Source of the DNA: Eubacteriales bacterium
GTDB taxonomy: Bacteria > Bacillota > Clostridia > Lachnospirales > Lachnospiraceae
Assembly: GCA_030524745.1 (NCBI GenBank)
Contig: JAUNGC010000003.1
Coordinates: 1 to 64,000 of the forward strand
Direction: 5' to 3'
DNA length: 64,000 nucleotides
Below the pieces are notes generated by a model. It saw nothing but the letters and a program-made list of their open reading frames with translations, made no database searches and had not been told where the DNA came from. Shown here in pieces: positions 1 through 53,093 of this stretch; position 1 is the stretch's first letter, and each line of letters starts with the position of its first letter. The position numbers and the translations under genes were made by a program.

Positions 1-51
1 CCCGCCTCCTCAGCTTGGGAAGCTGATGTTCTACCGATGAACTACATCTGC
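1..51 (-). tRNA. tRNA-Gly(CCC), 5' part only
   Basis: Read on the minus strand the gene begins GCAGATG (acceptor arm), continues with the D-arm GTTC...GAAC and an anticodon stem TCAGC/GCTGA closing the loop TTCCCAA, whose anticodon is CCC (glycine). The window edge cuts it in the variable/T-arm region, so the 3' half is missing. A promoter with an extended -10 lies just upstream. Confidence 0.88.
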
Positions 52-22042: not shown

Positions 22043-22109
22043 GCAGTTCACATTTTTTTAACAAACTCCTTCTGCAGCGGTTCGCAGGCCATCTCCAGGT
22101 GCGGAACCA

Positions 22110-22450
22110 GCGCGGCGATATGGTTCTGTCCCGGCATGCTTTCCGCGGCCTGCTGTGCCTGCCCGCCTGCATCCCTTCGGGCGTATGGGTATTTGCAGCC
22201 ATGACTGATATTCCAAATGGAGAGATTCTCCAAAGTGTCAGACCATTCCTGACATTGAAGGCGGACTGTTTGAGCCGCGAAGCGGTGAGTTTCCGCATTC
22301 AATGTCAGTTTGGAATGGGATGGCGCTTTGGACAGAATCTCCCATCTGGAATATCGGAATGGCGAAAATACCCATACGCCCGGAGAGATGCAGGCGGGCA
22401 GGCACAGCAGGCCGCGGAAAGCATGCCGGGACAGAATCACTCCGCCGCGC
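22110..22450. repeat. long palindromic element, copy 1
   Basis: 341-bp imperfect palindrome between the divergent marR and ECF S-component promoters. Arms run from GCGCGGCG (22110) to CGCCGCGC (22450) and include TCTGTCCCGGCATGCTTTCC paired with its complement. A conserved left strand (22188-22213) and right strand (22349-22372) recur in the element at 41.7 kb. The centre is CATTGAA...TTCAATG enclosing a small GCCGC/GCGG hairpin. Reading frames through it are open in both directions only because of base bias. Confidence 0.85.
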
Positions 22451-22484
22451 AAACTGGCCTGTTTAAAAAAACGCAAAATGGCAC

Positions 22485-41582: not shown

Positions 41583-41668
41583 ACGCTATTTCCTGTGAAA
41601 TTTTTTCCAATTTGTCCGATCATGCGTCCCCTGTACACTGAGGGTACCTTCATAACACTCCTCTTAAA

Positions 41669-42049
41669 TGTTGTAAACGGCATGGGCCCCGGCCCGGTCT
41701 GCGCTGTGCCTTCGCGCCCGTCCGGCCCGGCCTGCTTTCCTGCGGCGCACAGGTATTTGCAGCCATGACTTATATTCAAAACGGTAAAATTCCCCAAAAT
41801 TGAGGCACGTTCCTGCCGCACGATGCACATTGTCTGAACAGTGAAGGGGTGATTCGCTCAGAATCACCCCTTCACTGTGAGTTTGTGTATCGTGCGGCAG
41901 TTTGGAATGTGCCTCAACTTTGGATGGAATTTTCCGTTTTGAATATCGGAATGGCGAAAATACCCGTGCGCCGCAGGAAAGCAGGCCGGGCCGGACGGGC
42001 GCGAAGGCACAGCGCAGACCGGGTCGAGGCCCCATGCGGTCTACAATTT
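41669..42049. repeat. long palindromic element, copy 2
   Basis: About 380-bp imperfect palindrome starting directly after the Na/Pi transporter stop codon. Outer arms contain GACCCGGTCTGCGCTGTGCC-type sequence on one strand and its complement on the other. Left core strand 41752-41777 differs by a single base from that of the element at 22 kb, and right core strand 41941-41964 is identical to it. The centre (41839-41877) is a perfect hairpin CAGTGAAGGGGTGATTC/GAATCACCCCTTCACTG. Confidence 0.85.
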
Positions 42050-43714
42050 TTAAGACAACCTGGTCTTATCCGCCAGTTCCACATTTTCGCTGTCATGTAT
42101 TGCGAAAGCGATATTGGTGGCATGATCCGCCACCCTCTCCAGTCCTGATACCAGGTCGGAAAAAATCATACCCGCTTCCGGAGAGCACTCATTCTTTGTC
42201 AGCCTCTCGATATGCTTCTGCTGCAGTTCCCGTTCCTTGTCGTCAATCGCGTCTTCCAGACGCTGAATATCTTCCATATGTTCATCGGAACTGGTAGCGA
42301 ACATCTCCACCGAATAACGGATGATGTCGTTCACCATATCCAGCATTTCTCCCAGTTCTCTCTGGGCAGTCTGGGAAAATCCCAATCCCGTTTCTTTTCT
42401 TCTGACGGCGTCATCCGCCACATTCTCCGCATGATCTCCGATCCGTTCAATATCGTTGACCACGTGGAACAGCGCGCCGATACTCTGCTGGTCTTCAATC
42501 GGCAGCGTAGTCTGATTGATTTTAACCAGATAATTCGTAATAGCATGATTCAGGAAATTAATATTTTTCTCCACCTGATATACTTCATTAATATCTTCTT
42601 CGTCCAGCGTGATGAGCGCATTCATGGCCCTGTTTAAATTTTCGCTCGCAAGAGAAGCCATGCGTTCTAGCTCCTTGATAACCTCCACCACCGCTGTGGC
42701 AGGATTAAATACAACCTTATTTCCGATATACTGCAGGGTAAAGCTTTCCCTGTAGCCGACGCTTTTGTCCGTGCCGGGCACAAGAAGGTAGGTCATTTTC
42801 ACGATCCAGCCGGAGAACGGGAACAGGACGATTACCTGGAATATTTTAAAGATCGTATGCGCGTTTGCAACAATACGTCCCGCGTTGTCGCCGGAAATGC
42901 CGTACAGCAGTCCCAATACCGGATTCATCGCAATCTTCAGGATAATATACATGATAATCGTGCCGATCACGTTGAATAGAAAATGAATCATGGCCGCGCG
43001 TTTCGCGTCCTTTTTTCCCGTCATGGAAGCCAGCAGCGCCGATGTACATGCGCCGATATTGCAGCCTAAAATAATGAACATACAAATGGGAAGTTCCAGA
43101 AGTCCCTGATTTGCCATCAACAAAACGATGCTGACCGTAACGGAAGAACTCTGAATCACCGCCGTCAGCACGGTTCCCACCAGAATCGCAAAAACCGGAC
43201 TTTTCAAGGAATGAAGAAGATCGACAATCTGCGCCATATCCTTCATGCCGGACATAGCGGAAGACATTCCGTCCAGTCCCATGAACAGCACGCCAAATCC
43301 CAGTATGATATTGGCGATCTTTACGATATTCTGCTTTTTGCAAAACATTACAATCAGCGCTCCGCCGAGCAAAAATACCGGCGCTATTTCAGATAAATTA
43401 AAGGAAACGAGCTGGGAAGTGACCGTCGTACCGATGTTAGCGCCGAAAATCACGCCCGCTGCCTGATACAGAGTCATCAGCCCCGAGTTTACGAAGCTGA
43501 CCACCATTACCGTACAGGCGGAAGAGGACTGGATGATCGCCGTAAAAACGATACCGACCAGCATGCCGACAAAACGGTTCTTCGTGAACATCTCCAGGAT
43601 TCCCCTCAATCTTGCCCCCGCAGCTTTTTCAATGCTGTCGCTCATCATTCTCATGCCGAGCAGGAAGAGTCCAAGCCCTCCGGCCAGAGACAAAAGCATA
43701 GCCCCTATGTCCAT
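42050..43714 (-). CDS. Na/Pi cotransporter family protein with PhoU-like domain
   Basis: About 554 residues from ATG 43714 (GAAGGAG upstream; another ATG two codons earlier is too close to it). The membrane part, about 1-330, has two inverted NptA/PNaS repeats with the QSSSA/QSSSV motifs (AIIQSSSACTVMVVSFVNSG and AVIQSSSVTVSIVLLMANQG). A cytoplasmic PhoU-like helical domain (about 345-545) has IERIGDHAENVADDAVRR and LERVADHATNIAFAI. Expected to move phosphate with sodium; PhoU-like tails may regulate it. Its stop abuts the palindromic element. Confidence 0.92.
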   Translation of the reverse strand: MDIGAMLLSLAGGLGLFLLGMRMMSDSIEKAAGARLRGILEMFTKNRFVGMLVGIVFTAIIQSSSACTVMVVSFVNSGLMTLYQAAGVIFGANIGTTVTSQLVSFNLSEIAPVFLLGGALIVMFCKKQNIVKIANIILGFGVLFMGLDGMSSAMSGMKDMAQIVDLLHSLKSPVFAILVGTVLTAVIQSSSVTVSIVLLMANQGLLELPICMFIILGCNIGACTSALLASMTGKKDAKRAAMIHFLFNVIGTIIMYIILKIAMNPVLGLLYGISGDNAGRIVANAHTIFKIFQVIVLFPFSGWIVKMTYLLVPGTDKSVGYRESFTLQYIGNKVVFNPATAVVEVIKELERMASLASENLNRAMNALITLDEEDINEVYQVEKNINFLNHAITNYLVKINQTTLPIEDQQSIGALFHVVNDIERIGDHAENVADDAVRRKETGLGFSQTAQRELGEMLDMVNDIIRYSVEMFATSSDEHMEDIQRLEDAIDDKERELQQKHIERLTKNECSPEAGMIFSDLVSGLERVADHATNIAFAIHDSENVELADKTRLS

Positions 43715-53021: not shown

Positions 53022-53093
53022 GGCTAGTTGGTCAAGCGGTCAAGACGTCGCCCTCTCACGGCGAAAACAGGGGTTCGATTCCCCTACTAGCTG
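53022..53093 (+). tRNA. tRNA-Glu(CTC)
   Basis: Acceptor GGCTAGT/ACTAGCT, D-arm GTC..GAC, anticodon stem TCGCC/GGCGA around CTCTCAC (anticodon CTC), T-arm CAGGGGTTCGATTCCCCT-type stem with TTCGATT loop, discriminator G. The 3' CCA is not encoded. Divergent from the rimP operon. Confidence 0.93.

Follow-up and report, generated by a model that had tools for sequence, protein, structure and literature searches.

The palindrome at positions 22,110 to 22,450 of the window, by which we mean the whole 64,000-nt stretch of DNA that was analyzed, is one copy of a dispersed giant palindrome that is strand-specific, keeps its loops, occurs in many phyla and has multiplied in this lineage. We tentatively interpret it as a giant REP-like dispersed element that may be recognized as folded single-stranded DNA by a putative factor, its arms being kept paired partly by template switching during replication.

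A palindrome family and its common fold

Two copies lie in the window. Their features are listed below; model R1 was built from alignment A1, which comprises the cores of 28 copies.

22110..22450, + strand: copy 1, whole palindrome (inverted repeat and fold; arm extent 341 bp)
22184..22375, + strand: core of copy 1 matching model R1 (E 3.2e-44)
22188..22213, + strand: left core strand of copy 1 with the GCA and GACT loops, GGTATTTGCAGCCATGACTGATATTC
22266..22275, + strand: 5′ strand of the inner loop of copy 1, CTGTTTGAGC (loop columns invariant in 28 copies; motif present in many phyla)
22285..22292, + strand: 3′ strand of the inner loop of copy 1, GTGAGTTT
22308..22311, + strand: four-base bulge on the 3′ side of copy 1 (alignment columns 188-191)
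22349..22372, + strand: right core strand of copy 1 with the GGA and GA loops, GAATATCGGAATGGCGAAAATACC
41662..42055, + strand: copy 2, whole palindrome (arm extent 394 bp; fold of the core)
41748..41967, + strand: core of copy 2 matching model R1 (E 3.3e-48)

The preliminary description of the window had proposed a long palindrome with a conserved asymmetric core at the first of these positions. An inverted-repeat search bears this out, with arms at 22110-22194 and 22366-22450 that are 93% complementary, and the fold of region 22100-22460 (361 nt) has an energy of -285.7 kcal/mol (z -24.6), far outside chance, as 0 of 100 dinucleotide shuffles folded as well. The core strands pair as described, in stems of 7, 5 and 7 pairs separated by the GCA/GA and GACT/GGA loops. 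The described relationship to the copy at 41.7 kb also held: its left core strand (41752-41777) has one base changed and its right core strand (41941-41964) is identical, and its arms differ in sequence from those of copy 1 and keep their self-pairing. The window additionally contains two tRNA matches, at 53022-53093 (+) and 1-51 (-), the second of which is cut by the window end.

Searching the genome at the DNA level returned 33 matches. With R1, we obtained at least 59 matches. Of these, 29 are strong copies, one is a divergent copy (C21:202481) and 29 are weaker echoes that fall at the same places but on the opposite strand. The further genomic copies that the preliminary description had called for thus exist: the genome carries at least 30, at different places and on both contig strands. 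The 28 copies that were measured range from 207 to 505 bp (median 374 bp), and two half elements are also present (L049 and L053). Two copies of a small inverted repeat, GTAACAGTTCGGCGTAGCTGAACTGTTAC, were seen in the flanks of the elements at L008 and L024.

The consensus structure of A1 has 78 pairs, 49 of which show double changes. Across the 28 copies, 97.0% of cells are paired, compared to 85.9% after shuffling and at most 45.3% when the alignment is slid, and the 276 double-change cells compare to 75.1 (sd 9.4) in shuffles, none of 500 reaching the observed number. The asymmetric loops are kept while the stems change, above all CTGTYTGAGC / GCGAGTTT near the apex, where eight unpaired positions (columns 89, 90, 93-95 and 169-171) are invariant in 28/28 copies. 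This inner loop is better conserved than the core-strand loops pointed out in the preliminary description.

At gathering scores, Rfam gave no match for the window or 18 other loci; one match with E 3.4 is at chance level. Translations of five open frames from the element had no meaningful match in Pfam or NCBIfam, and searches of the open-licence literature by core fragment, tail fragment and topic returned no paper on the element.

Strand preference and gene context

At paired sites in the 28 copies, G·T (G·U in RNA) occurs 85 times and A·C 17 times, leaving out one invariant U·G pair and noting that the consensus fold of A1 allows G·U and so favors it somewhat over A·C. The corresponding counts in 49 Ralstonia copies are 53 and 19. 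As a cruciform would give equal counts, this excess indicates that the fold of one strand matters.

The motif strand is the GC-skew-negative strand, presumably the leading-strand template, in 28/30 copies of this genome (p 9e-7). Tested as a family-wide property, the replication-strand bias was rejected (15/25 loci in relatives and 81/150 in a broad set). Genes were predicted solely from open frames; on this basis, most of the nearby coding length runs antisense to the motif strand in 27/30 copies. Nearest neighbors were examined for 28 of the 30 copies, and 27 could be classified: 14 have both neighbors antisense, 8 lie between divergent genes, 3 between convergent genes and 2 have both neighbors sense. 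The gene on the 5′ side points away in 22 of these 27, and all 8 copies between divergent-called genes have the motif strand on the skew-negative side. A crude promoter scan gave scores upstream on the motif strand that were not above those of the other strand or of the downstream side.

Copies in relatives and in other phyla

Within the genus, 8 of 13 genomes have an R1 match and 7 of these are convincing; the match in G001 is weak, lacks the inner motif and is doubtful. Among the matches listed, 24 of 25 copies from relatives belong to the family, and they mostly keep the inner motif and the 3′-side bulge on entirely different stems. G003 has 13 R1 matches and G006 has 5. When 66 elements were placed in a tree, 29 of the 30 copies of the present genome formed an exact split, with a support of only 0.61, and the same copies together with the five of G004 form a split with a support of 0.68. 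The divergent copy stands apart, next to those of G005; the copies from G006 cluster with the doubtful match from G001 (0.94), and the copies of G002, G003 and G007 are interleaved. We read this pattern as suggesting multiplication within lineages.

Orthologous sites reveal how copies change. At one site, G003 and G002 carry elements with cores in opposite orientation between matching flanks, and G007, which has no element there, shows just a short hairpin containing A- and T-runs; the loop sequence of this hairpin is found, along with its reverse complement, within the arms of the G003 and G002 elements. Judged by contig coordinates, a second site is flipped in G007 relative to G002/G003, with the neighboring element unflipped between G007 and G003. 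The G003/G007 ortholog pair L375/L379 differs by two adjacent double changes and three one-sided changes that break pairs. A second pair (15448/3749) has two double changes, and its one-sided changes comprise six that keep and six that break pairs; a third comparison is uninformative since the matching flank runs out. At L374/L391, G003 has two inverted elements where G007 keeps one, along with a leftover left arm of the second. Taken together, these comparisons suggest that arms get repaired, cores flip and elements are lost. The empty site and the missing G007 copy can be deletions, given that remnants of arms stay behind. No gain by insertion was caught among the ortholog sites compared, and as regards fixed insertion ends or a target duplication, these sites showed only presence or absence with deletion-compatible remnants. 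In Ralstonia, a pair of elements is absent from G175, where its outer tails are still found. A 272-bp palindrome-rich insertion in Ralstonia G176 (L331:16308-16580) has no counterpart at that place in three other Ralstonia genomes; it was ruled out as an insertion of the element, being a different, MITE-like one.

Beyond the genus, a genome scan recovered the exact 21-mer CTGTYTGAGCGAAGCGAGTTT from many phyla, in at least 120 stretches; the 80 titles listed include Bacteroidota, Proteobacteria, Bacillota, Desulfobacterales, Nitrospirae, Gastranaerophilales and Vogelbacteria. The loci retrieved hold 134 occurrences, 123 with enough flank for a fold test. In these, z was below -3 in 80 (below -5 in 49) and weaker than -3 in 43, compared to 0/122 controls below -3. 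When other apices were allowed, the wider pattern was present in 13/150 genomes of the Lachnospiraceae (control pattern 0) and 19/398 of the Bacillota (control pattern 1), and the apical hairpins of the family-level matches vary in sequence with pairing retained. GNA triloops are stable in DNA; by eye they are common at the apex among the listed Bacillota hits, but not among the copies of this genome.

The element is a high-copy repeat in Ralstonia. With a 3.5-kb query holding one copy, between 53 and 68 matches were obtained in each of five genomes, numbers that are not exact copy numbers because some matches are to other parts of the query or are other-strand echoes; most of the matches listed cover one stretch of about 230 bp of the query. 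Many Ralstonia elements sit in inverted pairs, and inverted pairs 330-480 bp apart are found on contigs C42 and C71 of G039 (L291 and L292), as in Ralstonia and Noviherbaspirillum. A search with one Ralstonia copy against plasmid records gave no match and the 21-mer was seen in only one viral stretch, which is what a chromosomal repeat dependent on a host factor should show. In three loci (L114:2325-2768, L171:2071-2421 and L103:5000-6082), the core gives rise to similar-looking open frames, whose peptides include LFERSEF and RFAQT; these matched no curated family and are probably spurious genes.

Competing explanations and the search for a partner

The element shares features with several known systems. 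Like REPs, BIMEs and REPINs, it is a dispersed extragenic imperfect palindrome with many copies per genome, often in inverted pairs, and with strand-specific irregularities. However, REPs are 20-40 bp long and carry a GTAG or CGTC tag in the account excerpted from PMC3733652, whereas the element is several hundred base pairs long (207-505 bp) and has GTAG directly before its estimated foot in 0/28 copies. As in attC sites, structure is kept as sequence changes and unpaired bases give polarity; the active attC strand lies on the leading-strand template in 25/30 sedentary integrons (excerpt of PMC5371416), alongside the 28/30 copies here. Unlike attC, the element occurs as single dispersed copies, with no cassette arrays in the loci read, and its conserved loop is near the apex. 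It also resembles the hairpin ends of IS200/IS605, which are read as single-stranded DNA in a manner tied to replication (excerpt of PMC6006769), but has no transposase gene inside or beside its copies. MITEs are likewise non-coding, dispersed and palindromic; the element differs in its fixed internal loops with compensated stems, and no target duplication or terminal repeat has been established for it.

We hypothesize that one strand folds into a hairpin with fixed asymmetric loops, CTGTYTGAGC / GCGAGTTT innermost, and that the folded single-stranded DNA is most likely recognized by a putative trans-acting factor that disperses the element. Recognition is modeled on that of attC by IntI (PMC5371416) and of REPs by TnpA-REP, which binds single-stranded imperfect hairpins strand-specifically (PMC8266576), both as described in excerpts. 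Arm complementarity would be kept by selection on folding and by replication template switching, which would also account for the flips and for some of the losses. We infer that single-stranded DNA is the active form, that a trans-acting factor exists and that the element spreads by transposition. This REP-like reading, the one that we tentatively prefer, is favored by the at least 30 dispersed copies, covariation with kept loops and the excess of G·U over A·C. The 28/30 bias to the skew-negative strand (all 8 divergent copies included), the lack of a promoter signal on the motif strand, the 21-mer in folding hairpins across phyla and the grouping of 29/30 copies in the tree also favor it. Counting against it, searches found no partner protein and caught no insertion, the strand bias is absent from relatives and the broad set, the split has a support of only 0.61 and the G·U excess is no less compatible with RNA than with DNA.

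Indeed, the copies could be a multi-copy structured RNA, with the motif strand transcribed and a protein binding the loops of the long hairpin. The preliminary description had taken changed stems, preserved pairing and fixed loops as the mark of selected RNA structure or of a palindromic transposable-element family. The 28-copy alignment and its covariation uphold that pattern, and with it the tolerance of G·U far above A·C (85:17, and 53:19 in Ralstonia) suits an RNA, as does the two-strand loop UGA...GA with its 3-base excess, which may resemble a kink-turn. The RNA option is nonetheless weakened here and we consider it unlikely: neither the window nor 18 other loci matched Rfam, in 27/30 copies the motif strand is antisense, with the 5′-side gene pointing away in 22/27, promoter signal is absent on the motif strand and orthologous copies may be inverted. 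The transposable-element option gains from dispersal, seen in the copy number here, the 29 copies grouping at 0.61 and the abundance in Ralstonia. A functionless origin, in which palindromes that arose long ago stay paired only through replication template switching, appears improbable. Such switching can make and repair stems (excerpt of PMC8794818), the L375/L379 pair has neighboring pairs changed on both arms, cores flip, and the arms at one site hold the target loop sequence and its reverse complement. Yet it would erase asymmetric loops, and the loop columns are invariant in 28 copies with the inner loop shared across phyla; nor does it predict an excess of G·U over A·C or multiply copies. 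Template switching thus explains the well-paired variable arms, not the fixed loops. That these are outsized transcription terminators of neighboring genes is barely credible. Many copies begin at or just past a stop codon, 31 of 99 classified copies in other phyla lie between convergent genes, and a short hairpin bearing A- and T-runs occupies the element-free G007 site, but a terminator needs no fixed inner loop, cross-phylum motif or strand preference, and 8/27 copies here lie between divergent-called genes.

The element could also be a giant REP mobilized by a Y1 (TnpA-REP/RAYT) transposase, a proposal that the strand-specific hairpin binding of TnpA-REP and the inverted element pairs support and that we nevertheless regard as highly improbable. 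All nine element-rich genomes from other genera had Y1_Tnp (a single match in each of five Ralstonia); these genomes were picked for their elements, five of them from one genus, with no matched negatives. Most of the matches are long open frames (258 to about 300 residues). Within the 4 to 10.5 kb surrounding the nine matches, the motif was nearby in G039 alone, about 2.6 kb off, and in 0/5 Ralstonia; Y1 genes are thus not generally flanked by it. Within the genus, Y1_Tnp is missing from the element carriers G003 and G006, reduced in G000 to a 42-position remnant with stops, and present in the element-free G008 and G010, so that it does not track the element. A tblastn search with three long Y1 proteins, which tests for the long type only and missed known short Y1 genes in both G007 stretches, gave no hit in the sequence covered (about 0.62 Mb from this genome, 0.20 Mb from G003 and 0.09 Mb from G007). 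A Y1 partner in the genus is therefore not supported.

A reverse transcriptase was rejected as partner, with matches in G000, G003, G006 and G007 but also in the element-free G010, and none in G002, G004 and G005; the four such proteins scanned (from G007, G010, G000 and G006) hit many general reverse transcriptase models. Clustering 795 predicted proteins from 120 loci of other taxa for a shared neighbor gene yielded small clusters only, the largest (7 loci) being ABC-transporter-like by eye.

The inner loop is the same letter for letter in Bacteroidota, Proteobacteria and Bacillota on stems that share nothing, which implies a shared recognizer; none is named in the open-licence literature searched, and the element matched no known family. 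A bolder proposal, to which we give rather less credence than to a REP-like element, is an undescribed class of hairpin elements in many phyla whose near-universal inner loop would mark folded single-stranded DNA for an enzyme acting at replication forks. Some hosts could employ as this factor a long Y1 protein of the REP-free kind (an excerpt of PMC6006769 reports that Y1 subclasses carrying a C-terminal domain lack an association with REPs), and another factor could act in the genus studied here. What REP-free Y1 proteins act on, and how far template switching or selection accounts for the covariation of the stems, can now be tested.

Further hairpins accompany the element in some phyla. In Burkholderiales loci (L103, L122, L143, L331, L332 and others) and in Bacteroidota (e.g., L091, L094 and L104), the large hairpin is followed by a second one of the type GGTTACTTTCTTTGG ... 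CAAAGAAAGTAA, and in Ralstonia this second hairpin is followed by a GCCCCGGCAGGGG hairpin and often then by an A/C-rich tail.
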